A stretch of DNA of 10,833 bases, from contig JAKLIE010000017.1 of NCBI GenBank assembly GCA_022709775.1, positions 1 through 10,833 of the forward strand. Reading direction: 5' to 3'. Under the pieces are notes generated by a model that did not search any database, had not been told where the DNA came from, and saw only the letters and a list, made by a program, of their open reading frames with translations. Origin of the DNA: Pseudomonadota bacterium. GTDB taxonomy: Bacteria; Pseudomonadota; Gammaproteobacteria; Burkholderiales; Casimicrobiaceae. The number at the start of each line of letters is the position of its first letter. The first letter of the stretch is position 1. Below are positions 1 to 10,833 of this stretch, piece after piece. Made by a program: the position numbers and the translations under genes.

Positions 1-453
1 CGCCGACACGATGACGGTCTCACCGCGCTCGGGTTTCCCGACATCGAGCATGCCGACCCACGCGGTAAGCCCGGGCGACCCCATTACGCCGAGCGCAGTC
101 GAGATCGGCGCGAGCGATGCGTCGACAGTCTCGAGGGCGTCGGCGGACGCGACCGGATGCGTCTGCCACCCGGTTTCTCCGCAGACGATGTTCCCGGCGA
201 CAAAACGCGGATCGTTCGACTGGATGACCTCGCTTACCGCACGTCCGATCACTGTCGCGCCGGGCGCCGCGGCGGTTCCGTAGTTGCGCGCGCCGGCCAT
301 CCAGTTGCGCTGGTATGGATCCATCGACAGCCAGATCGTCCTGAGCCGCAATTCGCCCACGCCGGGCGCTCGGAGTGGCTCGTCGACAAGGGTGAAGTCA
401 GCCGGCTCCGGCATCCCCTGCGGGATGCGCGCGAGCGCTACGCGGCGGTTCAC
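1..453 (-). CDS. NADP-dependent MDR oxidoreductase (CurA / leukotriene B4 12-hydroxydehydrogenase type), N-terminal 151 residues, cut by window edge
   Basis: This is the 5' part of a gene that runs off the left edge, with 151 codons visible. The family reduces activated C=C double bonds or quinones with NADPH, in the cytoplasm and without zinc. Visible family signatures are LSMDPYQRNWM at about residues 43-52, matching the MDPYxRxxM motif of this group, and GSPGLTAWVGMLDVGKP at about 125-141 followed by GETVIVSA. The nucleotide-binding glycine motif should follow just past the edge. The GTG at 453 was chosen because it gives the usual N-terminus (NRRVALARIPQGMP) and no other start lies upstream in frame before the TGA at 484-486. 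No good Shine-Dalgarno is seen before it. It follows the binding-protein gene by 41 bases and is probably the next gene of the same operon. The family is secure; the substrate cannot be told. Confidence 0.88.
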   Translation of the reverse strand, partial: MNRRVALARIPQGMPEPADFTLVDEPLRAPGVGELRLRTIWLSMDPYQRNWMAGARNYGTAAAPGATVIGRAVSEVIQSNDPRFVAGNIVCGETGWQTHPVASADALETVDASLAPISTALGVMGSPGLTAWVGMLDVGKPERGETVIVSA

Positions 454-494
454 GGGCGCGCCACGGGTTCGGTCGGGTGGATGTGAGGCCCCCC

Positions 495-1466
495 CTACTT
501 GGCCTTGAGCCCGAGGCTCGGCAGGACCCCACCCCAACCATCGTACTGTCCGCGGAAGAACGTTTCGAATTCGTCGACCGTCCCGCCGACCGGCGTGACG
601 CCCGCTTCGGACATCTTCCGTCGCATATCGGGATCGCGGATCGCGCTCATCGTCGCGGCGCTGATCGCGTTCACGATCTCCGGCGGCGTGCGGCCCGGGA
701 CCATCACGCCCCACCAGAACGACATCTCGAACGGCACGCCCGCCTCGCGCGACGTCGGAACGTTCGGCAGCCCGGGAAGCCGCTGAGGCGCGAAGACCGC
801 AAGCGCCTTCACCGTCCCCGCGTTGATGTGCGATTTCGCCGAGGGCTCCGCACCGGGCATGACCTCGATGTGGCCCGCGATCAGGTCGGAGAGCGCGGGT
901 CCCGCTCCCTTGTACGGGACGTGTGTCATTTCGATGCCCGCGGCACGCGAGAACATCTCCATCGTCAGATGATGGACCGTCGCCGCGCCCGGCGTGCCGT
1001 AGTTGAGCTTGCCCTTGTTCGCCTTCGCTACCGCGATCAGGTCGGCGAACGTCGAGAGGTCGGGGCGCTTTCCGGTCGACAGGAGCAGGATGGGCAGCGA
1101 GCCGACCTGGGACACCAGCTTCAGGTCCGTGCGCCAGTCGAAAGGCATGTCCTGCAGGTGCGGGAGGAGGGAGAGCGACTCGGAGCCGAACAGGACCGTG
1201 TAACCGTCGGGCGGGCTCTTCGCAACGAAGTCTGCACCGAGAATGCTGCCGGCGCCCGCCTTGTTCTCGACGATCACCGGCTGGCCCCACTGCGCCGACA
1301 GCTTCTCCGCGAGCATGCGCGCAAGAATGTCCGTCGTCGCCCCGGGCGCGAAGGGCACGACGAGCTTGACCGGACGATCCGGGAATGCGGCCGAGGCCCC
1401 TCCCGCCATGGCGAGAGCGAACACCGCGACGGCGAAGGTTGCGAACCGCCTTGTCCATCCGTTCAT
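495..1466 (-). CDS. Bug/TctC family tripartite tricarboxylate transporter substrate-binding protein
   Basis: This is a 323-residue periplasmic solute-binding protein, the usual length for the family. Residues 1-26 form a signal peptide: positive N-terminus (MNGWTRR), hydrophobic core, and a GGASA-A cleavage site near 26/27. The mature protein opens with FPDRPVKLVVPFAPGATTD, containing the family's substrate-loop signature. GTPGAATVHHLTMEMF (about 158-172) and YKGAGPALSDLIAGHI (about 185-200) are further hallmarks. The ATG at 1466 was chosen because it has a strong GAGGAG site and directly starts the signal peptide. An in-frame ATG at 1535, overlapping the stop of the preceding ferredoxin gene, would add 23 charged residues and spoil the signal. 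No TctA or TctB membrane genes are present in the window; orphan Bug proteins are common in Burkholderiales. Placement suggests it captures the substrate or a related acid of this operon, but its ligand is unknown. Confidence 0.95.
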   Translation of the reverse strand: MNGWTRRFATFAVAVFALAMAGGASAAFPDRPVKLVVPFAPGATTDILARMLAEKLSAQWGQPVIVENKAGAGSILGADFVAKSPPDGYTVLFGSESLSLLPHLQDMPFDWRTDLKLVSQVGSLPILLLSTGKRPDLSTFADLIAVAKANKGKLNYGTPGAATVHHLTMEMFSRAAGIEMTHVPYKGAGPALSDLIAGHIEVMPGAEPSAKSHINAGTVKALAVFAPQRLPGLPNVPTSREAGVPFEMSFWWGVMVPGRTPPEIVNAISAATMSAIRDPDMRRKMSEAGVTPVGGTVDEFETFFRGQYDGWGGVLPSLGLKAK

Positions 1467-1472
1467 GCCTGG

Positions 1473-1479
1473 CTCCTCT
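1473..1479 (-). promoter_or_regulatory. Ribosome binding site of the Bug/TctC gene
   Basis: On the coding strand this reads AGAGGAG, six bases before the ATG at 1466. It decides the start against the in-frame ATG at 1535, which has no such site and sits inside an ATGA overlap with the upstream stop codon. Confidence 0.75.
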
Positions 1480-1531
1480 TCGTTGGGGGCGCCGAAGGAC
1501 GCCCATCTTCCCTGTCTGTCGCGTCCGGGCC

Positions 1532-2383
1532 TCATGCCCGCTCGAGGCGCACGACGCCGAGGTAACGACTCACGCCAAGCGTTACCGCCGTTCGCGCGTC
1601 GCGATACCCGTTCGCACGCACGACCACCTCGTACGCGCCGCTATCCTCGCCCAGCCCGTCGACCTTGAACTCGCCAAATTCGTCGCTCTTCGCCGACGCG
1701 ACGACGCTCCCGTCCTTGATTACGTCGACCGTCGCACCCGCGACGCAGTCGTCGACACCGTTCGCCCGCGCGACGAGTGTCCCGCCGACGAAGCACGCGA
1801 CGTAGCGGTGCAGGTTCTGGTAGAAGACGCGTGGTCGCGTGCCGAACTCGGGATGGAGCACCTCCCAGCCCTCGTTCGCCACACGGGCCGCCAGCGCATC
1901 GTCGTCGAGCTTCGCCGACGTCATCGCGGCGGTCGGGCAGGCCTGGACGCAGCGCGGCTCCTTCCAGCCGCGATCGATCAGGTGCGCGTCGAAGATCCAT
2001 TTCTGCGGGAGTCGCTCCTCGTCGTTCCACCAGATCGCCCCGTACGGGCAGGTGTAGACGATCTCCTGCCGTCCACGCGCCTTGTCGGGGTCGATCATCA
2101 CGATACCGTCGGGGCGCCGGTAGACGGCGCCGTCGGTCGAGGCGGTCACGCAAGGGGCGTTCTCGCATTGGTTGCACGTCGTCGGCAGGTGCGCGACGTC
2201 CACCATCGGCGCTTCGCCACGCTCGCGCGTCGAGATCGCGATCCAGTCGTGGCCGTGCCTCGGCTGCGGCGCGGCATAGCCGGGGTAGGCGTTGCCCACG
2301 TGCTCGTCCTTGCATGCGACGTAGCAGTTGCGACAGTTGTGACACTTCGCCAGGTCGATGAACAGCGCCCATTTGCCGGTCAT
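1532..2383 (-). CDS. Transhydroxylase-type molybdoenzyme small (beta) subunit: [4Fe-4S] ferredoxin with C-terminal Cna-B/transthyretin-like domain (AthS/RhS homologue)
   Basis: This 283-residue iron-sulfur subunit partners the molybdenum subunit encoded just upstream. It has the layout of the small subunit of Pelobacter pyrogallol-phloroglucinol transhydroxylase: a ferredoxin part (1 to about 155), a linker with GTRPRVFYQNLHRY (181-194), then a beta-sandwich domain (about 198-283) with the Cna-B-like stretch SDEFGEFKVDGL. Cluster cysteines visible are C14, C17, C20 and C24; C70, C73 and C78; C112; and C145 and C149. As I recall the Pelobacter protein, it binds three clusters with twelve cysteines. 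Here the CxxC expected at 129-132 reads WIFD, leaving ten, so probably two full clusters. No signal peptide is present, so it is cytoplasmic. The ATG at 2383 is preceded by GGGGGAGG, which lies in the intergenic repeat. The family call is firm; whether the enzyme is a transhydroxylase or an oxidase/hydroxylase is open. Confidence 0.9.
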   Translation of the reverse strand: MTGKWALFIDLAKCHNCRNCYVACKDEHVGNAYPGYAAPQPRHGHDWIAISTRERGEAPMVDVAHLPTTCNQCENAPCVTASTDGAVYRRPDGIVMIDPDKARGRQEIVYTCPYGAIWWNDEERLPQKWIFDAHLIDRGWKEPRCVQACPTAAMTSAKLDDDALAARVANEGWEVLHPEFGTRPRVFYQNLHRYVACFVGGTLVARANGVDDCVAGATVDVIKDGSVVASAKSDEFGEFKVDGLGEDSGAYEVVVRANGYRDARTAVTLGVSRYLGVVRLERA

Positions 2384-2645
2384 GAGGCACCCTCCCCCAG
2401 GCTCGCCGCTCGCGCGGCATCGCGCCCCCCCTCCGCAGGGAGGGGGGTGTGGTCCCCCCGAGGCGAACGCTGTTCGCCGCCCCCCGGGGGGCCCGACGAC
2501 CTCGGGGCGGCCCGTCGGTCGTCGGCGCCCAGGGACGGCCCGGCGGCGCTCGATGAACGACCTCCCCCAGGCTTGCCCGCCGCGCGGTCTTCGCGCACCC
2601 CCTCCCCAGGGAGGGGGCGAGCGCCTTGGGACGGCCCGGCGACGC
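2384..2645 (-). repeat. Tandem G/C-rich hairpin repeat (two head-to-tail copies) between the molybdoenzyme subunit genes
   Basis: The gap between the two subunit genes holds two direct copies of one element, about 2557-2649 and 2381-2556. On the coding strand each begins CAT(C)GAGCG, then CGCCGGGCCGTCCC, and ends GCCTGGGGGAGG. Each carries a perfect hairpin: 2598-2605 with 2610-2617 (8-bp stem), and 2426-2434 with 2439-2447 (9-bp stem). The longer copy has about 80 extra bases containing further inverted repeats: GGCGAAC/GTTCGCC at 2462-2468 and 2472-2478, a 14-bp palindrome at 2479-2492, and CCGACGACC/GGTCGTCGG at 2493-2501 and 2517-2525. No T-run follows any stem, so these are not classic terminators. 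The structure resembles a dispersed intergenic repeat family, but its copy number elsewhere in the genome cannot be seen. Confidence 0.8.
2391..2398 (-). promoter_or_regulatory. Ribosome binding site of the small-subunit gene, provided by the intergenic repeat
   Basis: The coding strand reads GGGGGAGG, seven bases before the ATG at 2383. The same GCCTGGGGGAGG-type sequence ends the other repeat copy at 2561-2568, so this translation signal appears to be part of the repeat rather than of the gene. Confidence 0.65.
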
Positions 2646-5597
2646 TCATGACCTCTCTCCGTTCCACTTCTCGATCTCGATCAGGCAGGAGTTCGGCGCC
2701 GAGGCGCTCGTCTTCTCGGTCTGCCAGCGGGTGGGTGCGAGCGTGTTCACGCAGCCGCCGCGGTCGGTCGAGCGGCCCGGCTCGCCGATCGGGTCGTAGA
2801 CCGCCGACGACGCATACGCCTGCACGACGCCCGGTGGCAAGCGCTCGGTCAGCGCCGCCGCGCAGATCACGCTGCCGCGGTCGTTGTGGAGCCGCACGAG
2901 ATCGTGATGCGCTACGCCGCGCGCGCCGGCATCCCTCGGGTTCATCCGTGCGACCCAGTAGTAGTAGCCGTCGACGAGGACGCGGTGCTCCTCCACGTCG
3001 TTGATGAACGTGTCCTTGCCGTCGGTGTGCGTATGGAAGCTGTAGCGCGGGTGCGGCGTGATGAGCTGGAGCGGGAAGCGCGCGTAGAGCTCGCTCGTTC
3101 CCCTGCCCTCCCACGACGGGATGTAGCGGTTCACCGGCGGCCGTCCGGGATCGTCGAACATCTTCAGGCTCGACGGCTCGAACTCGATCTTGCCGCTCAT
3201 CGTCTGCAGGCCTTCGCGGAACGTCGTGCCGTAGCCCGCCGGCAGCGGATGCGGCTCGGGCACGTCCTTGCGCCGCCCCTCTGCGAACCAGCGCATCGCG
3301 ACCGGCTGCGGCGTCTTCGCGGTGTCCTCGGGCGGCACGACGTAGTAGCCCTTCTTCAGGAACTCCTCCCACGAGATGCGGCCCGGCAGGTCGGACGCCT
3401 CGAACTGCGCTCGACACCAGTCGAGCTCGGTCATCCCCTCGCTGTAGTACGTGCCCAGTCCCAGGCGGTGCATGATCGAGAGGAAGATCTGGTAGTCCGA
3501 TCGCGACTCGCCCAGCGGCTCGACGCACTTGTGCTGGATCGAGATCACGCGGTGGTTGAGCTGCCCGTTGTTGTGGTGCGAGTAGCCTCCCGCCACGGTC
3601 CACTCGCCGATGTCCCAGCGCTCGAAGTTCGTGCACGCCGGCAGGATGATGTCGGCGAACTTCGACTCGCCCTCGTGCCAGATCGACTGGTTGACGACGA
3701 ACTCCAGCTCGCTGGATCGGTACGCCTCGGCAAGCCGGTTCGACTCCTGCACGGTGCCGAAGTGCGAGCCGCCGTACTTGTACATCATCCGCACGCGCGA
3801 GTGGCCCGGCGCCGGGTAGTGGAAGCGCATGAATTGACCGTGGATCGACTTCGGGTCGATCGGGTGGCCATGCGTCTCGCCGTCGAGGATCGCTTCCGCG
3901 ATTCGGTTGCGCGTGATCCGCTGAGTCACGACGTTCATGCTCGGAAGCTGCGGCTGTCGCTGGTAGAGCTGGACCGCCGCGCCCGTCGTTTCGACGTCGC
4001 CGGCAAGCCCGCCTTCGCCGTAGCCGGGGAAGTAGAAGTTGTAGTCAATCGGCGCGCCGTACTGCAGGTTGCCGAAGTTGACACCGGGCTTGCCGAGCCC
4101 CTGCATCGCCATCAGGCAGACCATCGCGCGCGCCCACTGCGAGCCGGTCGCCGAGCGGCAGGCCCCGCCGAACGCGGTCCCCTTGCCCCCCGCGCCGAGG
4201 TAGGTTCTGCGCGTACCCCACTTGCGCGCCAGCGCGCGCACCGTGAACGCCGGGACGCCGGTCTCCGGCTCCTGCCACTCGGGGGACTTCGGCACGCCGT
4301 CCTCGACGCCCAGCACGTAGTCGCGGTACTTGTCGAAGCCGGTCGTCCGCTCGGCGACGTAGGCCTTGTCGTACAGCCCCTCGGTCATCCAGACGTGCGC
4401 GATCGCGTGCGCGAGCGCCGGGTCGGTGCCCGGCACGATCGGGATCCACTTGCCGCCGAGCAGCGACGCCGTGTAGTTGAGGTGCGGGTCGATGTGCACC
4501 ATCTCGATGCCGACGTCGCGCGCGAACATCCTCCGCAGCGTGCCCTCGAACGCGCCGTACGAGCCGCCGGTCGACTCCGGGTCGCTCGACCAGAACACGA
4601 TCAGCTCCGCCTGCTGCAGGCAGTCGTCGAGCATCCCGTAGGGCTCGGCCGCGCCGAGCCGCATACTGTAGCCGTAGTGGTGTGTGGCGCCCCAGTACCA
4701 GCCCTCCCAGCTGTCCGGGTTGATCACCATCTTCGTGTAGCCGATGGCGTTCATGAACCGGTTGAACGCGCTCACGTAGCAGCCGATGTTGCCCCAGGTG
4801 TGGTGCGAGCTGTGACTGTTCATGATCGCGCCGTGGCCGTGCACGCGCTTGACGCGCCGGATCTCCGACACGACGATGTCGAGCGCCTCTTCCCAGCTGA
4901 TCGGCACGTAGCTCGACTTGCCGCGGTTCGCGCAGTTACGCTCGCCGTTCGGGTCGAAGTCGACGCGCTTCATCGGCGTCAGCAGTCGGTCCTTCGAGTC
5001 GACCATCGACTTCGATGCAAGCGTGTGCGCGGTCGTCGTCGTGCGGCGCGGCGGCGTGAACACCTGTCCGCGCGCCTCGATCGACCATGAGTGAGGGTCG
5101 TGCTCGTCGAAGTCGATCGGCGTCGTCCGCACGATCTTCCCGTCCTTCACGTAGACGAAGACCGGGCCGCTGTTGGTCGCGTTGACGTAGCGCGTCTCGC
5201 CCTGGCCGGCATCCACGCCCATCGTCCAGCGGACCGACCGCATCAGGCTCAGCGTTTCGGTGAATCGGCAGGCGAGCTCGTCGTCGCCGGTCACCTCGAC
5301 CGAGAAGTTCTTCGCGAAGTTGACCGCGTCCGCGCGCTTCGAGCCCGGCTTGAAGACGCGCCAGGCGACGTCCTCGTCCTTGAACGTCAGCACGACATCG
5401 GGCTTCGCGTGCAGTCCCGCGGCCGAACGCACGCGCGATGCTCCGAACGCATAGTGGCGCGCCGGACCCGCCGGATCGCGCATCCGGAGTTGGACGACGT
5501 GCGCGCGCTCGGCGAGCCGCGCGGCGAACGCCGGGTAGCGCGCCGCCGTCAGGTTCATCGCCCATTCCGCGCCTTTCAGCGCCAGTGCCACTTTCAT
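2646..5597 (-). CDS. Transhydroxylase-type molybdopterin large (alpha) subunit (AthL/RhL homologue) with extra N-terminal SCP2-like domain
   Basis: This 983-residue subunit belongs to the DMSO reductase superfamily and is closest to pyrogallol-phloroglucinol transhydroxylase and resorcinol hydroxylase large subunits. These carry bis-MGD molybdenum and rearrange or add hydroxyls on phenolic rings in the cytoplasm. The match runs from about residue 134 (GPVFVYVKDGKI, 144-155) to the C-terminal LIEIEKWNGE. Active-site counterparts are visible: H265 in SSHHTWGN, D295 and S296 in NPDSWEGW (Ser as Mo ligand), and a tyrosine in YFPGYGEGG, probably Y526. There is no N-terminal cysteine cluster motif and no Tat signal, as in the family. 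Residues 1 to about 130 are extra: the Pelobacter enzyme, as I recall, has about 875 residues. The pattern PDVVLTFKDEDVAWRVF...GDDELA suggests an SCP-2 fold. The ATG at 5597 has GGAGA six bases upstream. An in-frame extension upstream to 5951 would overlap the aconitase gene and is rejected. Confidence 0.92.
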   Translation of the reverse strand: MKVALALKGAEWAMNLTAARYPAFAARLAERAHVVQLRMRDPAGPARHYAFGASRVRSAAGLHAKPDVVLTFKDEDVAWRVFKPGSKRADAVNFAKNFSVEVTGDDELACRFTETLSLMRSVRWTMGVDAGQGETRYVNATNSGPVFVYVKDGKIVRTTPIDFDEHDPHSWSIEARGQVFTPPRRTTTTAHTLASKSMVDSKDRLLTPMKRVDFDPNGERNCANRGKSSYVPISWEEALDIVVSEIRRVKRVHGHGAIMNSHSSHHTWGNIGCYVSAFNRFMNAIGYTKMVINPDSWEGWYWGATHHYGYSMRLGAAEPYGMLDDCLQQAELIVFWSSDPESTGGSYGAFEGTLRRMFARDVGIEMVHIDPHLNYTASLLGGKWIPIVPGTDPALAHAIAHVWMTEGLYDKAYVAERTTGFDKYRDYVLGVEDGVPKSPEWQEPETGVPAFTVRALARKWGTRRTYLGAGGKGTAFGGACRSATGSQWARAMVCLMAMQGLGKPGVNFGNLQYGAPIDYNFYFPGYGEGGLAGDVETTGAAVQLYQRQPQLPSMNVVTQRITRNRIAEAILDGETHGHPIDPKSIHGQFMRFHYPAPGHSRVRMMYKYGGSHFGTVQESNRLAEAYRSSELEFVVNQSIWHEGESKFADIILPACTNFERWDIGEWTVAGGYSHHNNGQLNHRVISIQHKCVEPLGESRSDYQIFLSIMHRLGLGTYYSEGMTELDWCRAQFEASDLPGRISWEEFLKKGYYVVPPEDTAKTPQPVAMRWFAEGRRKDVPEPHPLPAGYGTTFREGLQTMSGKIEFEPSSLKMFDDPGRPPVNRYIPSWEGRGTSELYARFPLQLITPHPRYSFHTHTDGKDTFINDVEEHRVLVDGYYYWVARMNPRDAGARGVAHHDLVRLHNDRGSVICAAALTERLPPGVVQAYASSAVYDPIGEPGRSTDRGGCVNTLAPTRWQTEKTSASAPNSCLIEIEKWNGERS

Positions 5598-5603
5598 GCA
5601 ACG

Positions 5604-5608
5604 TCTCC
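5604..5608 (-). promoter_or_regulatory. Ribosome binding site of the large-subunit gene
   Basis: The coding strand reads GGAGA, six bases before the ATG at 5597. It lies within the 13 bases that separate this gene from the aconitase stop codon, and supports the 983-residue form over longer readings. Confidence 0.7.
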
Positions 5609-5610
5609 GT

Positions 5611-8349
5611 TCATCCCGGTGCGAGCGAGCGTTCGCGCGCCGGTGCGAAGCGCGACCGGGCCGAGCGGAAGATCCCGCCGTCGCTGAGCTGTCGCGCCTC
5701 GGACGCGGTCGTGATGCCGATGGTCGTCTCCAGCAGGCGTTCGGATCCGGCACGGCGCGCGCGCACGCGAACCTTCGTCCCGGCAGCGAGCGCGGATTCC
5801 AGACCGTCGATGTCGATCGTCTCGGTCCCGTCGAGCCCCAGCTCGCGCCAGCCTTCGCCTGGTGCGAACGTGAGCGGGACGATGCCCATGCCGACGAGAT
5901 TAGCGCGGTGGATGCGCTCGAACGACGAGGCCAGCACGGCGCGCACGCCAAGGAGCGAGGGACCCTTTGCCGCCCAGTCGCGGCTGCTGCCGGTACCGTA
6001 CCGCGCGCCCGCGACGACGATCATGGGCACGCCCCGCGCGCGGTAGGCGCTGGCCGCTTCGTGGATCGGAACGACGTCGCCGTCGGGCAGAAGCCGCGTC
6101 CATCCGCCGACGCGATCGGGCGTGAGGAGATTGCGAAAGCGCGCGTGTGCGAACGTCGCGCGCCGCATCACCTCGGCGTTGCCGCGCCGGCCCACGTACG
6201 TGTTGAACTGCGCAGGCCCGACTCCGAGCCCTTCGAGGTAGCGTCCCGCGGCGCTATCGGCGGGAATCTCACCGCCGGGCGAGATGTGATCGGTGTTCAC
6301 TGCATCGCCCATCAGGCACAGGACGCGCGCACCCTCGATGCGGTCGGCGAACGCGTCCGCGTCGCGGTCGAAGAACGGCGGCCGAACGAGGTAGGTCGAC
6401 GCCGGGTCCCACGCGAACCGCTGCCCGGCCGGCGCGGCGAGGCGCTGCCACTGCGGCGGGCCGGCGTAGAGCGCCGCGTAGACCCCGTCGAAGAGCCGCG
6501 GGCCGAGCGCCCGCGCCGCGAGCGCCTCGACCTCGTCCGGATCGGGCGCGACGTCCGCGTAGAAGACCGGCCGGCCGCGCGCGTCGACGCCCAGCGGATC
6601 CCGGGCGAGATCGGCGTCGATGCGGCCGGCGATCGCGTACGCGACCACCAGGTGCGGTGCGCCGAGGTACGCGGCACGCACCAGGCGGTGGATTCGCCCC
6701 TCGAAGTTTCGGTTGCCCGAGAGCACGGCCACCGCCACGAGACCGTGGCGCTCGACCGCCTCGGCGACACCCGCGTCCAGCGGACCGGACTTGCCGCCAC
6801 AGGTCGTGCATCCGTAGCCCACGACCGAAAACCCGAGAGCCTCGAGCGGCTCGAGCAGGTTGAGATCGGCCAGGTAGCGAGGGACGGTTCGCGATCCGGG
6901 TGCGAACGACGTCTTGACCCACGGCGCCGGCGACAGCCCGCGCGCGTGCGCGTTTCGCGCCAGGAGCCCCGCCGCGATCACCGAAGCGGGGTTCGACGTG
7001 TTCGTGCACGACGTGATCGCGGCGATCGCGACGAAGCCGTGCGAGAGCCTCGCGGAACTGCCGCCCACCGTGCATTCGACGCCGGCCGCCTCCGCCGCGG
7101 CGAATCCGTCGTCGGCGACCGGACGCGCGAGCGCGGCGGCGAAGCTCGCCGCGACGTCGCGCAGCCCGACGCGGGACTCGGGCCGCCGCGGGCCCGCCAT
7201 CGCCGGATCGATCTCCGACAGGTCGACCTCGATCGTCGCGTCGTAGTCGGGCAACGGATCGCCCGGCTCGCGGAAGAGTCGAAGCGCACGGGCGACCGCC
7301 TCGGTGCGCAGGACGTCGCCCTCGGAACGCCCGGTCGCGCGCAGGAACGCGAGCGTCTCGCCGTCGACCGGAAAGTACCCCATCGTCGCACCGTACTCGG
7401 GCGCCATGTTGGCGATCGTCGCGCGATCGGGAGCCGCGAGCGCGCTCGCACCGTCGCCGACGAATTCGACGAACGCGCCGACCGGCGCTCCACGGCGAAG
7501 CAGCTCGGTGATGGCCAGCGCAAGGTCGGCCGCCAGAACGCCGGGCTGCGGCCGCCCCCGCAGCCGAACGCCGACGCAGGACGGCTTCGGCACCACGAGC
7601 GGGTCGCCGAGCAGGACAGTCTCGGCCTCGATGCCCCCCACGCCCCAGCCGATCACGCCGATGCCGTTGACCATCGGCGTGTGCGAATCGGTCCCGATGA
7701 CGAGCTCGGCGCCCGCGGTCGCCTCGTCGAAGCGCGCGTCGAGCGCGACCGGACACGCCAGCCTCTCGACCTGGATCTGGTGGATGATCCCCGTTCCCGG
7801 CGGCACGATGCGGATGCCCTCGAACGCCTGCTGCGCCCATTTGAGGAACCGGTAGCGCTCGCCGTTGCGTTCGAACTCGCGGTCGAGGTTGCGCGCGAGC
7901 GCCTCGGGAACGCCGGCGACGTCGACCTGCACCGAGTGATCGACGACGAGATGCGCCGGCACCGCGAAGGTCACGCTCGCCGGCTCTCCCCCGGATTGCG
8001 CCACGACGTCGCGCAGTGCCGCCAGATCGGCCAGCACGGGGATCCCGCTCGAGTCGGGCATGACGAGCCGCGATACGGCGAGCGGTAGCGCCATTCCCGC
8101 CGGCGCGGTGCGCCAGTCGAGCGCTGTCTCCAGCCGCTCCGGCTCGCACTGTTTGCATGCGACCTGGCGGACCAGGTTCTCGAGAATCGCGCGCGCGACG
8201 TAGGGCACCCGGGCAATGTCGAGCCCTCGCTCCGAGAGCATGCCGGCAACGTCGGCGACGCGAAGCTCCTCGCCCGCCGCAACGACCCGCGCGAAGCGGC
8301 CGGCTCGCATTTGCACACCCGCGTCGGACGACGTCGTCCCGCCGCTCAC
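5611..8349 (-). CDS. Aconitase family hydro-lyase, AcnA/IRP type, divergent
   Basis: This 912-residue protein has the full AcnA/IRP layout, close to the usual 890 or so residues. It should bind one [4Fe-4S] cluster and interconvert hydroxy-acid isomers through an alkene. Cluster ligands are C448 (ITSCTN), C514 and C517 (GYGCTTC). Other signatures are RFLKWAQQAF (167-176), PPGTGIIHQ (183-191), TDSHTPMVNGIGVIGWGVGG (220-239), APEYGATMGYFPVD (316-329), GNRNFEGR (545-552), GDAVNTDHISPGG (681-693), and YGTGSSRDWAAKGP (784-797) with the likely catalytic S788 and R790. It departs from ordinary AcnA after the cysteines (GGKSG where IGNSG is usual) and at NTYVGRRGN (usually NSYGSRRGN), so it may be a paralogue with another substrate. 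The GTG at 8349 has GGGAG eight bases upstream; a later ATG at residue 14 is less well placed. It lies 51 bases after the GlcG-like gene and 13 before the large subunit. Confidence 0.93.
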   Translation of the reverse strand: MSGGTTSSDAGVQMRAGRFARVVAAGEELRVADVAGMLSERGLDIARVPYVARAILENLVRQVACKQCEPERLETALDWRTAPAGMALPLAVSRLVMPDSSGIPVLADLAALRDVVAQSGGEPASVTFAVPAHLVVDHSVQVDVAGVPEALARNLDREFERNGERYRFLKWAQQAFEGIRIVPPGTGIIHQIQVERLACPVALDARFDEATAGAELVIGTDSHTPMVNGIGVIGWGVGGIEAETVLLGDPLVVPKPSCVGVRLRGRPQPGVLAADLALAITELLRRGAPVGAFVEFVGDGASALAAPDRATIANMAPEYGATMGYFPVDGETLAFLRATGRSEGDVLRTEAVARALRLFREPGDPLPDYDATIEVDLSEIDPAMAGPRRPESRVGLRDVAASFAAALARPVADDGFAAAEAAGVECTVGGSSARLSHGFVAIAAITSCTNTSNPASVIAAGLLARNAHARGLSPAPWVKTSFAPGSRTVPRYLADLNLLEPLEALGFSVVGYGCTTCGGKSGPLDAGVAEAVERHGLVAVAVLSGNRNFEGRIHRLVRAAYLGAPHLVVAYAIAGRIDADLARDPLGVDARGRPVFYADVAPDPDEVEALAARALGPRLFDGVYAALYAGPPQWQRLAAPAGQRFAWDPASTYLVRPPFFDRDADAFADRIEGARVLCLMGDAVNTDHISPGGEIPADSAAGRYLEGLGVGPAQFNTYVGRRGNAEVMRRATFAHARFRNLLTPDRVGGWTRLLPDGDVVPIHEAASAYRARGVPMIVVAGARYGTGSSRDWAAKGPSLLGVRAVLASSFERIHRANLVGMGIVPLTFAPGEGWRELGLDGTETIDIDGLESALAAGTKVRVRARRAGSERLLETTIGITTASEARQLSDGGIFRSARSRFAPARERSLAPG

Positions 8350-8357
8350 GGCGCTCG

Positions 8358-8363
8358 CTCCCT
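8358..8363 (-). promoter_or_regulatory. Ribosome binding site of the aconitase gene
   Basis: The coding strand reads AGGGAG, eight bases before the GTG at 8349, and supports this non-ATG start. Confidence 0.6.
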
Positions 8364-8400
8364 GGCACGGGCGACTCGCGATGCGGGCGTCGCTGGCACC

Positions 8401-8829
8401 TCAGCCCTTCTGCGTCGCCATGAACGCGGCGATGCCGGCCTCGCCGACCGCGTGGTCCTCGTCGGCCGCGCCCGAGCTGATGCCGACCGCACCGACGATC
8501 TGGCCATCGACGATGACGGGAATGCCCCCCCCCAGGATCGTGAAGCGGCCCTGGAACTGCGTGTGAAGGCCGAACGCGGCGCCGCCCGCGCCCGCGACGG
8601 TCTTGTAGTCGCGCGTCGCGCGCCCGCCGCCGGACGAGGTGAATGCCTTGTTGATCGCGATCTCGACCGACGAGAACTTCGCGCCGTCCATGCGCCGGAA
8701 CGCGATCAGGTGGCCGCCCTCGTCGACGACTGCCATGTCCTTCGGGGTGCCCACTTCGACGGCTTTCTTCTGACAGGCATCGAGGATGAGTTGGGCGTCG
8801 GCGAGGCTCAGGCGCTTCAGGGTCAGCAC
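8401..8829 (-). CDS. GlcG/HbpS family (DUF336) protein
   Basis: This is a 142-residue single-domain protein of the GlcG/HbpS group. Family signatures are VVDEGGHLIAFRRMDGA at about 34-50, AINKAFTSS at 58-66, and GGGIPVIVDGQIVGAVGISSG at 100-120, followed by ED and VGEAG. Some members bind haem (HbpS of Streptomyces) and some sit in glycolate or aromatic catabolic operons (GlcG), but no enzyme activity is established for most. No signal peptide is visible, so it should be cytoplasmic. The start is a GTG at 8829 with GGAGA seven bases before it. It lies between the DRE-TIM enzyme gene (52-base gap) and the aconitase gene (51-base gap), so it is probably cotranscribed. Its role here is unknown; cofactor binding or protection of a sensitive enzyme are guesses. 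Confidence 0.92.
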   Translation of the reverse strand: MLTLKRLSLADAQLILDACQKKAVEVGTPKDMAVVDEGGHLIAFRRMDGAKFSSVEIAINKAFTSSGGGRATRDYKTVAGAGGAAFGLHTQFQGRFTILGGGIPVIVDGQIVGAVGISSGAADEDHAVGEAGIAAFMATQKG

Positions 8830-8881
8830 GTCGGGTTCTCCGGGGAAGGACGAAAGGGAAGGTTTCGTGGGACGCGCGCCG

Positions 8882-10081
8882 TCAAGCGGCCGACTTCAAT
8901 CGCTCGAGCATCGCGAGGAGCTGGTCGTCTCCGATCGGGGCGCTCTGTCTCTCGGCGGTCGCCCGGACCTCGGCGGCGAGCGCGTCGACCAGCGCGTCGT
9001 CGTCGACGTTCAAGCCCAGCTGGCGGAGACGCGCGCCCACCGCGCTGTGACCGGAGAGGCGCCCGAGCCCGATGTGCCGGCTGTTGCCGAAGGTCTCGGG
9101 CGGGACCGACTCGTAAGCGGAAGGCCCGAGCGAAACGCCCATCACGTGCGCGTCGAGCTTGTGCGCGAACGCGTGGCTGCCGACGATCGCCTTGTGCGGC
9201 GGGACGTCGATCCGCGACACCGATGCGACGAGCGAGGCGAGCGCGCTCATGCGCTCGAGCTTCGCGCCCGTGGGCACGCCGTAGAGCACCTCGAGGCTTG
9301 CCGCCAGTTCCTCGAGCGGCGCATTGCCGGCACGCTCGCCAACGCCGAGCACGGTGCCGTCGAGGATCGTCGCGCCCGCCTCCGCTGCCGCGAGGGTGTT
9401 CGCGAGCGCGAGCCCAAAATCGTCGTGAAAATGAACCTGCACCGGCACGCCCGCGACGGCCACCGCACGGCGAACGAGAAACGCCGTCGCGCGCGGATGG
9501 AGCGCGCCGACGGTGTCGGCGACCGTCACGCGCTTCGCGCCCGCCGCGACGACGGCCTTGTAGACGGATTCGAGGAAACCCAGGTCGGCTCGCCCGGTGT
9601 CGGTCGGCGCGAAGCGAACGTTCGGTGCGCGCGAGCACGCGTAGTCGACCGCCTCGACGGCGCGCACGAGCATCTGCGCCCGCGTGACCTTCTGAACGAT
9701 CGACAGCCTAAGGTCGGACACGGGATAGATCAGGTCGATCCAGTCGGCGCCCGAGTCGACGGCGCGATCGATCTGATCGCGCCAGTCCTTCTGGAACACC
9801 TGCGTGACCGCCTCGACCGTCCACGACGGGAACCGCTTGCGGATCTCGACGATCGTCCTGAAGTCGGTCTCGGATCGCCCGGGATAGCCCGCCTGGACTT
9901 GCGCGATGCCGGCATCGTGCAGCGCTTCGGCGATGCGCAGGCGTGCATCGAGCCCGAAGTTGACCTCGCTCGCCTGCTCGCCTTCGCGCAGCGTGCAGTC
10001 GTTGAGGATGACCCGCGGCGCGAACGACTGCTCGCCGCGCACGGCCGGGTCGGTGTTGATCGCGCTCACCGCGGACTTCAT
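8882..10081 (-). CDS. DRE-TIM metallolyase family enzyme, homocitrate synthase / 2-isopropylmalate synthase type
   Basis: This 399-residue protein has a TIM-barrel catalytic domain. It opens with NDCTLREGEQ (27-36), the DRE motif region that supplies the metal aspartate (D28) and catalytic Arg/Glu. VHFHDDFGLALANT (216-229) gives the metal histidines H217 and H219, and GVGERAGNAPLEE (246-258) is the usual glycine-rich turn. The C-terminal part, PPHKAIVGSHAFAHKLDAHV (294-313) and RLSGHSAVG, matches homocitrate synthase (NifV) and isopropylmalate synthase subdomains. That makes a Claisen-type synthase joining an acyl-CoA to a 2-oxo acid more likely than an HMG-CoA lyase. No LeuA regulatory domain is present. 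The ATG at 10081 has GGGAGG six bases upstream. An in-frame ATG at 10111, overlapping the dehydrogenase stop, would add ten residues. An aconitase homologue two genes downstream suggests their reactions follow each other, as in chain elongation. The substrate is unknown. Confidence 0.88.
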   Translation of the reverse strand: MKSAVSAINTDPAVRGEQSFAPRVILNDCTLREGEQASEVNFGLDARLRIAEALHDAGIAQVQAGYPGRSETDFRTIVEIRKRFPSWTVEAVTQVFQKDWRDQIDRAVDSGADWIDLIYPVSDLRLSIVQKVTRAQMLVRAVEAVDYACSRAPNVRFAPTDTGRADLGFLESVYKAVVAAGAKRVTVADTVGALHPRATAFLVRRAVAVAGVPVQVHFHDDFGLALANTLAAAEAGATILDGTVLGVGERAGNAPLEELAASLEVLYGVPTGAKLERMSALASLVASVSRIDVPPHKAIVGSHAFAHKLDAHVMGVSLGPSAYESVPPETFGNSRHIGLGRLSGHSAVGARLRQLGLNVDDDALVDALAAEVRATAERQSAPIGDDQLLAMLERLKSAA

Positions 10082-10086
10082 CGCCA

Positions 10087-10093
10087 ACCTCCC
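10087..10093 (-). promoter_or_regulatory. Ribosome binding site of the DRE-TIM enzyme gene
   Basis: The coding strand reads GGGAGGT, with the GGGAGG core six bases before the ATG at 10081. It favours this start over the in-frame ATG at 10111, which overlaps the stop codon of the dehydrogenase gene. Confidence 0.7.
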
Positions 10094-10107
10094 GTTCGCA
10101 GCATGCG

Positions 10108-10833
10108 TCATGGCAGCGAGATGCCGCCATCGACGGCCCAGGTCTGGCCGGTCACGAACGCGGTCCTGTTCGACGCGAGCAGCACGACGGCGTTCGCCAC
10201 GTCCTCGGCCGTCGCGATGCGCCCGAGCGGAATCGCCGCCTTCTTGCCCTGCTCGTAGGCCGGGTCGCGGAACAGGTCCGCGGTCATCGCAGATCGCACC
10301 GCGGTCGGCGCTACCGCGTTCACGCGCACCTTCGGCGCGAGCTCGAGCGCGAGGACCCGCGTGAAGTGGATCAGCGCGGCCTTCGAGACGCCGTAGGCCG
10401 CACCGGTCTTCGCCGCCACGATCCCGTTGATGCTTGCGATGTTGACGATCGCACCGCCACGCGACTTCATCTCCGCGCCGAATGCCTGGCAGGTGCGCCA
10501 GCAGCCGCCGACGTTGACGTCGAGGATCTCCGCCAGCGCCTCGTCGGTGCAGTCCATCGCGCCCGCGCGGATCTGCAGCCCGTGCGAGTTGACGAGAATG
10601 TCGACCGGGCCGTCCTTCGCAACCTCGGCCGACGCCTTCGCGATCGAGTCGCGCGAACGCACGTCGGCGACGACCGGGCGGACACCCGGCATCGGCTCGG
10701 CGGGCACAAGGCGGTCGAGCGACCACACGCTCACGCCCTGCTGCGCGAGCATCCGGCAGATCGCGGCGCCTATCGCCCCCGAGCCGCCGGTCACGACGGC
10801 GCGCGAGCCGGCGAGTCCGAGGTCGAAGCCTCG
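10108..10833 (-). CDS. Short-chain dehydrogenase/reductase (SDR), classical type, 5' end cut by window edge
   Basis: 241 codons are visible and probably only a few N-terminal residues are missing, since the sequence entering the window (RGFDLGLAGSRAVVTGG) is already near the normal start of a classical SDR of about 250 residues. It should catalyse NAD(P)-dependent interconversion of an alcohol and a ketone. Seen are the nucleotide motif TGGSGAIG, an Asp after the second strand (SLDRL) that favours NAD(H), ADV, the catalytic serine in NIASINGI, and YGVSK with the Tyr and Lys. The C-terminus has the usual FVTGQTWAVDGG. The central NNAG motif reads NSHG, a mild departure. Its TGA overlaps an ATG in frame with the next gene (ATGA), so the two are coupled. 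Phloroglucinol reductases are also SDRs, which is interesting beside a transhydroxylase, but nothing here identifies the substrate. Confidence 0.93.
   Translation of the reverse strand, partial: RGFDLGLAGSRAVVTGGSGAIGAAICRMLAQQGVSVWSLDRLVPAEPMPGVRPVVADVRSRDSIAKASAEVAKDGPVDILVNSHGLQIRAGAMDCTDEALAEILDVNVGGCWRTCQAFGAEMKSRGGAIVNIASINGIVAAKTGAAYGVSKAALIHFTRVLALELAPKVRVNAVAPTAVRSAMTADLFRDPAYEQGKKAAIPLGRIATAEDVANAVVLLASNRTAFVTGQTWAVDGGISLP

Follow-up and report, generated by a model that had tools for sequence, protein, structure and literature searches.

A conserved, modular gene cluster joining a transhydroxylase-type molybdoenzyme to a DRE-TIM synthase and an AcnA paralogue, possibly serving (hetero)aromatic acid breakdown

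We analysed a 10,833-nucleotide stretch of a Casimicrobiaceae genome (assembly GCA_022709775.1, contig JAKLIE010000017.1, positions 1 to 10,833; hereafter the window). Its minus strand carries eight genes head to tail: an SDR, a DRE-TIM synthase, an HbpS-like protein, an AcnA-like hydro-lyase, the large and small subunits of a transhydroxylase-type molybdoenzyme (ThL and ThS), a Bug binding protein and an MDR reductase. An earlier note on this DNA had proposed that they may serve one undescribed catabolic pathway. The features are as follows.

10108..10833, minus strand: SDR oxidoreductase (PF13561, adh_short_C2, 169 bits); its 5' end lies beyond the window
8882..10081, minus strand: DRE-TIM Claisen-type synthase, homocitrate/isopropylmalate-synthase-like, of a distinct subfamily (PF00682, HMGL-like, 211 bits, and PF22617, HCS_D2)
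8401..8829, minus strand: HbpS/GlcG-like protein (PF03928, 115 bits)
5611..8349, minus strand: AcnA-type hydro-lyase paralogue with an altered substrate pocket (PF00330/PF00694, Aconitase and Aconitase_C)
2646..5597, minus strand: ThL, large (Mo) subunit of transhydroxylase/resorcinol-hydroxylase type (PF21423, AhtL-like_1st, 103 bits; PF00384; PF01568)
5223..5597, minus strand: N-terminal SCP2-fold domain of ThL (AlphaFold2 and Foldseek)
2384..2645, minus strand: ThL-ThS spacer with GC-rich repeats, 262 nucleotides (nt)
1532..2383, minus strand: ThS, iron-sulphur small subunit with a C-terminal carboxypeptidase-regulatory-like domain (PF13247, Fer4_11; PF13620)
495..1466, minus strand: Bug/TctC periplasmic solute-binding protein (PF03401, 234 bits)
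1..453, minus strand: MDR (curcumin-reductase-like) NAD(P)H reductase (PF16884, ADH_N_2, 103 bits); its 3' end lies beyond the window

The open reading frames and their Pfam families confirm the eight same-strand genes, and the enzyme families given in the earlier note were right, the molybdoenzyme subunits matching 4v4c_A (965 bits) and 4v4c_B (248 bits); all the genes it listed are present, with the HbpS-like protein and the small subunit left unnamed. The short gaps it described were found at six junctions (13-65 nt), but the ThL-ThS gap is 262 nt and no genes overlap, leaving a slightly looser layout. From SDR to MDR the gaps are 26, 52, 51, 13, 262, 65 and 41 nt, lengths that depend on the start codon chosen for each gene; the AcnA-ThL gap measures 13 nt in the window against 262 nt between ThL and ThS. 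The latter spacer shortens to ~170 nt and ~30 nt in two relatives introduced below (G465 and G332, respectively). It contains a ~57 bp element in two copies that are 86% alike, its sequence is related in G465 with no match in G332, and the region 2380-2650 gave a fold z-score of -2.7. A promoter scan of the window returned no consensus promoters and three terminator-like sites, all on the opposite strand, versus a shuffle mean of 4.0.

We searched 64 genomes of one betaproteobacterial family, centred on G332, and found orthologues of the DRE-TIM synthase in three: G465 (95% identity), G332 (89%) and G455 (79%). All three carry all eight genes in the same order and on the same strand, with protein identities of 56-97% (SDR, 75-92%; HbpS-like protein, 87-96%), and the MDR orthologue of G332 is full-length. 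The ratio of nonsynonymous to synonymous substitution rates (dN/dS) was below 1 for every gene, ranging from 0.08 to 0.56 over 24 gene pairs (0.08-0.25 versus G465, 0.09-0.24 versus G332 and 0.10-0.56 versus G455). The flanks of the three clusters differ: among 21 flanking open reading frames of at least 100 residues, the sole specific cross-genome match was a GntR-UTRA regulator gene beyond MDR on the other strand, common to G332 and G465 (76% identity), and the other matches involved a Bug paralogue 34-39% identical to the cluster Bugs. Because the eight genes recur in 3 of 64 genomes with such dN/dS values and differing flanks, chance adjacency of the eight is ruled out. The earlier note had named, as one of two findings that would refute it, the lack of this gene order in every relative; the order being conserved in three, that one did not occur.

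The window ends inside the SDR gene, and the clusters of the three relatives extend further. Upstream of the SDR, G332, G465 and G455 all carry genes for a UbiD decarboxylase, a class-III aminotransferase related to glutamate-1-semialdehyde aminomutase (GSAM), HyuA and HyuB, making a cluster of ~19 kb; these four genes are known from the relatives, and their presence there means that the eight are not the complete set. G332 and G465 also have a second Bug gene, absent from G455, which instead has a GntR-FCD regulator inserted between HbpS and AcnA; the total is 13 genes in each of the three. Among 349 genomes of the order, only the search centre, G332, had a UbiD homologue at E<=1e-50. Searches of plasmids for the synthase, ThL, UbiD, HyuA and the aminotransferase found none at >=60% identity. 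Two further proteins, P0009 (ThL, 75%) and P0129 (synthase, 68%), suggest another lineage with both genes.

The solved structure nearest to the molybdoenzyme, by the scores given above, is pyrogallol hydroxytransferase (transhydroxylase, TH). ThL has the AhtL-like domain 1 (PF21423) and the molybdopterin domains (PF00384, PF01568) of RhL/PgtL-type large subunits, and ThS is, as in that type, an iron-sulphur subunit with a C-terminal beta domain. Using what we take to be the TH residue numbers and roles, with positions counted on the ThL/4v4c_A alignment, the equivalents of H144, D174, S175 and Y404 are kept in 28/28 aligned ThL sequences. A group of molybdoenzymes with a Ser ligand to Mo is described in PMC10100899. 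The first 125 residues of ThL, which fall outside the part aligned to 4v4c_A, are predicted to adopt an SCP2 fold (AlphaFold2 mean predicted local distance difference test score 79; best Foldseek matches UbiJ-SCP2, E 6.5e-6). A Pfam search of this region in the window's own sequence returned no match, and of 80 ThL loci that are more distant, 68 have a detectable counterpart of it at E<=1e-8. ThL relatives are numerous, at least 3647 proteins at E<=1e-30 among 7997 scored candidates; one of them, the 1272-residue P0005 (86%), combines the domains of both subunits in a single polypeptide and may be a natural ThL-ThS fusion.

The synthase has the HMGL-like barrel, the HCS_D2 domain and the catalytic His/Tyr of the DRE-TIM superfamily. 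It scored below the cut-off in all NCBIfam models listed (25 of 29 matched; best 327 bits versus a cut-off of 517), and among these it thus falls outside the curated homocitrate, isopropylmalate and citramalate synthases. Most of 24 aligned rows share the subfamily motifs GYPG[RK]S, a basic residue before F[AST], and HKLDxH, and the subfamily Arg aligns with a homocitrate-synthase Arg that presumably binds the distal carboxylate.

Few genomes in the wider samples had a close match to this synthase. In a draw overlapping the order sample, one genome of 399 (G332) had it at E<=1e-80, and other large draws, with thresholds of E<=1e-80 or 1e-75, gave 1/369 (G332, the search centre; 0/368 others), 1/249 and 1/251; the 399- and 369-genome samples come from overlapping groups, and because searches of this size scored only a few candidates per genome, weak relatives may be missed. 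None of 20 genomes of ThL relatives had a match at E<=1e-70, and 12 of 15 other genomes had matches at E<=1e-30, all those listed being only 30-36% identical. In two other phyla (G1034 and G1188), relatives of the synthase adjoin genes for an aconitase-type isomerase, a PrpB-like lyase and a Tct transporter, joined by PrpD in G1034, an arrangement that appears, from gene content, methylcitrate-cycle-like; some gene labels at these loci were assigned by eye, the lyases fall slightly short of the cut-off for prpB, and a G1188 lyase has a split frame. G1188 has three such synthase copies (L134-L136) near aconitase-type isomerase subunits, a PrpB-like lyase and Tct genes.

Other synthase relatives sit in other settings. 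Two, P0143 and P0147, are fused to a GntR-FCD regulator domain. A Burkholderia stagnalis locus has annotated phosphoenolpyruvate (PEP) mutase and BKACE-type genes within ~5 kb and no aconitase, and an Agrobacterium locus is of LeuCD/isopropylmalate dehydrogenase type. On a Streptomyces scopuliridis plasmid (L114), a homologue lies with AcnA, a short isocitrate dehydrogenase (IDH)-family gene and an isocitrate lyase (ICL)/PEP-mutase-family gene, resembling a phosphonate biosynthesis locus.

The AcnA-type protein passes the NCBIfam AcnA cut-off (TIGR01341, 994 versus 945), yet its pocket motifs are altered in all four copies (MPDSSG for LQDFTG, CGGK for CIGN and NTDHIS for TTDHIS), read against what we take to be the residue numbers and roles of mitochondrial aconitase. 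The iron-sulphur cysteines are kept in 4/4 copies, and the G455 copy also deviates within SCTNTSNP. A second AcnA, carrying LQDFTG and CIGN, is encoded in G332; G455 shows a partial second match, and none was found in G465. Despite the AcnA score, the pocket residues and the second AcnA of G332 rule out a housekeeping role in the tricarboxylic acid cycle. In a midpoint-rooted tree of 18 rows, the paralogue groups with Shinella and Antarctobacter proteins (support 100/98), which have PDSSG and C[GS]GKSG in common with it but lack NTDHIS. Annotated neighbours of these Shinella and Antarctobacter genes include GntR and members of the ICL/PEP mutase, amidohydrolase or dihydroorotase, and isochorismatase families. 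ICL/PEP-mutase-family genes lie near AcnA in Antarctobacter, Shinella, Roseibium and Streptomyces, not in Roseomonas or Thermomicrobium (labels from Pfam/NCBIfam matches, deposited annotation, tblastn or visual reading). Plasmid matches to AcnA reached 60-80% identity in 3 of 377 records, and the rows examined in context were 47-52% identical.

The molybdoenzyme occurs in several gene contexts. ThL homologues at E<=1e-100 were present in 5 of the 64 family genomes, in seven copies. Two of these genomes, G454 and G456, carry ThL-ThS-Bug-MDR as a unit without the synthase, aconitase, HbpS or the cluster SDR (ThL 81-82% and MDR 55-59% identical), adjoined by LysR and DctP genes (Pfam-checked in G456 only), and neither had a synthase match at E<=1e-80. 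A second ThL copy in G454 (70%) adjoins thiamine pyrophosphate-enzyme, enoyl-CoA hydratase, dehydrogenase and aldehyde dehydrogenase genes. The flanks of the 80 more distant ThL loci, several of which stop at a contig end, held ThS in 76, a synthase or aconitase match in one (26-28% identity; none in the other 79), and HbpS in none. Two plasmid ThL relatives lie near genes annotated as VOC family and fumarylacetoacetate hydrolase family. Because the neighbours of the core-unit, phloroglucinol-set (see below) and plasmid loci differ, ThLS enzymes appear to occur in several ring-degradation contexts.

Starting from the gene content, order, conservation, families and conserved residues seen here, we infer each reaction, the reaction order, an N-heterocyclic substrate and a lyase encoded elsewhere. 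The reading we tentatively favour, at somewhat less than even odds, is a modular catabolic cluster for an imported (hetero)aromatic acid that combines oxygen-independent ring hydroxylation, lactam or imide opening and oxo-acid processing. UbiD, the aminotransferase, HyuA and HyuB would favour an N-containing ring acid over a plain polyphenol. ThL-ThS, within the core unit ThL-ThS-Bug-MDR, would hydroxylate the ring with water-derived oxygen, MDR or the SDR may reduce a double bond of the product, and UbiD would perform a decarboxylation. HyuAB may open the ring by ATP-dependent hydrolysis of a lactam or cyclic imide and, with the GSAM-like aminotransferase and the SDR, remove the nitrogen. The DRE-TIM synthase would then condense the resulting 2-oxo dicarboxylate with an acyl-CoA, and the AcnA paralogue would isomerise the condensation product, as in a methylcitrate-type sequence, any final lyase being encoded elsewhere. 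We regard as unlikely the stronger proposal that the whole ~13-gene cluster is one undescribed, oxygenase-free route for an N-heteroaromatic acid, running through UbiD, transhydroxylase-type hydroxylation, HyuAB opening, transamination, and DRE-TIM/AcnA elongation and isomerisation; if true, it would be a methylcitrate-like sequence built on a Claisen-type DRE-TIM synthase.

Several findings weigh against the favoured reading. G454 and G456 have the core unit by itself; the TH R153 position is Tyr in all 28 aligned ThL sequences; and UbiD and the aminotransferase are only distantly related to characterised enzymes (best 94 and 284 bits). Neither the window nor the three clusters and their available flanks contained a homologue (E<=1e-5) of the three lyases of the G1034/G1188-type modules or of the G1034 PrpD, and no PrpB-type lyase lies there beside synthase and isomerase. 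An Antarctobacter lyase query gave only weak matches in G465 (27% over ~240 residues, 41% over 85), and the best genome-wide lyase matches were moderate or weak (39% in G332, 37% in G455, 27% in G465). Given the absent lyase, the core unit found by itself and a substrate that is only putative, we hold this reading with caution. A competitor that we consider nearly as likely is two functionally separate catabolic units that happen to lie side by side, ThLS-Bug-MDR hydroxylating a phenol and UbiD, aminotransferase, HyuAB, SDR, synthase and AcnA handling another acid. This would fit the core unit being complete without the rest beside LysR and DctP in G454 and G456, and the DRE-TIM/isomerase/lyase units that lack ThLS in two other phyla; however, gene order and strand are unchanged across three genomes with differing flanks, and AcnA and ThL are just 13 nt apart in the window.

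Two other explanations concern particular enzymes. A variant pyrogallol/phloroglucinol or resorcinol route, with the SDR as a phloroglucinol-reductase-like enzyme and the remaining genes accessory, draws on ThLS being nearest to transhydroxylase and on the neighbours of the more distant ThL loci, at least three of the four phloroglucinol genes being present in 9/80 and all four in 5/80 (one member of each family checked; set as given in PMC10470551). We consider it improbable: tblastn of the window, the three clusters and the available flanks with one query per family for the cyclase, BKACE and 3-hydroxyacyl-CoA dehydrogenase gave no match at E<=1e-5, and SDRs encoded near those ThL genes share only ~30-42% identity with that of the window. 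Because these three other signature genes were not found there, we reject assignment to the phloroglucinol pathway itself. Less probable still is that HyuAB is an acetone/acetophenone-carboxylase-like enzyme, the pathway carboxylating a ketone or phenolic with no ring nitrogen involved. HyuA and HyuB do belong to the same families as Apc and Acx subunits, but a carboxylase role is disfavoured on scores: HyuA reached 480 bits to N-methylhydantoinase and 415 to 5-oxoprolinase versus 147-294 to the carboxylase subunits, and HyuB 276 and 243 versus 116-157. Both also score higher to caprolactamase than to the carboxylases, yet below the caprolactamase cut-offs. Acetophenone and acetone carboxylases, moreover, need more subunits than the single HyuA and single HyuB of the cluster.

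Taken together, the interpretation in the earlier note is partly supported. The gene set is confirmed, but because it is modular, one pathway for all eight genes is not supported as put forward: the core unit stands alone in two genomes, and a synthase or aconitase match lies in the flanks covered at 1 of 80 distant ThL loci. Its view that the route is undescribed fared better, the three phloroglucinol signature genes being absent and no description of the gene combination being found in the open-licence literature. Every enzyme is from a known family or superfamily; it is their combination for which no description was found there. To our knowledge, few substrates are known for transhydroxylase-type large subunits, numerous as these are, and the conserved cluster offers a testable setting for a new substrate class. 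Leads of wider scope are the large subunit's SCP2-fold domain and, in unrelated phyla, the grouping of a DRE-TIM synthase with an isomerase and a PrpB-like lyase.

Among known systems, the molybdoenzyme shares with pyrogallol-phloroglucinol transhydroxylase (4v4c) and resorcinol hydroxylase the two subunits, the AhtL-like domain, the Ser ligand and catalytic positions; compared with 4v4c, ThL has the extra SCP2-fold domain, Tyr at the R153 position and other gene neighbours. The Azoarcus resorcinol pathway includes genes for hydroxyhydroquinone dehydrogenase and a hydroxybenzoquinone-cleaving, pyruvate dehydrogenase-like enzyme. In the methylcitrate cycle (PrpC, AcnD/PrpD and PrpB), a synthase likewise goes together with an aconitase-family isomerase, and relatives of our synthase adjoin a PrpB-like lyase, with PrpD in G1034; the cluster synthase, however, is of DRE-TIM and not citrate-synthase fold, and the cluster lacks the lyase. 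FrbC/FrbA, the synthase-aconitase pair of FR-900098 biosynthesis, also pairs a DRE-TIM synthase with an AcnA-type isomerase, as does the Streptomyces scopuliridis plasmid, where ICL/PEP-mutase- and IDH-family genes accompany the pair in place of the Bug, HyuAB and ThLS of our cluster. The anaerobic nicotinate pathway of Eubacterium barkeri similarly brings together ring hydroxylation, cyclic amide hydrolysis and an aconitase-family hydratase, using other hydroxylase and amidohydrolase families and no DRE-TIM synthase. Finally, the Clostridium scatologenes phloroglucinol cluster, our reference for the four-gene comparison (PMC10470551), has an SDR in common with the window cluster, which is without its cyclase, BKACE and 3-hydroxyacyl-CoA dehydrogenase, and some bacteria carry ThL homologues beside that set.

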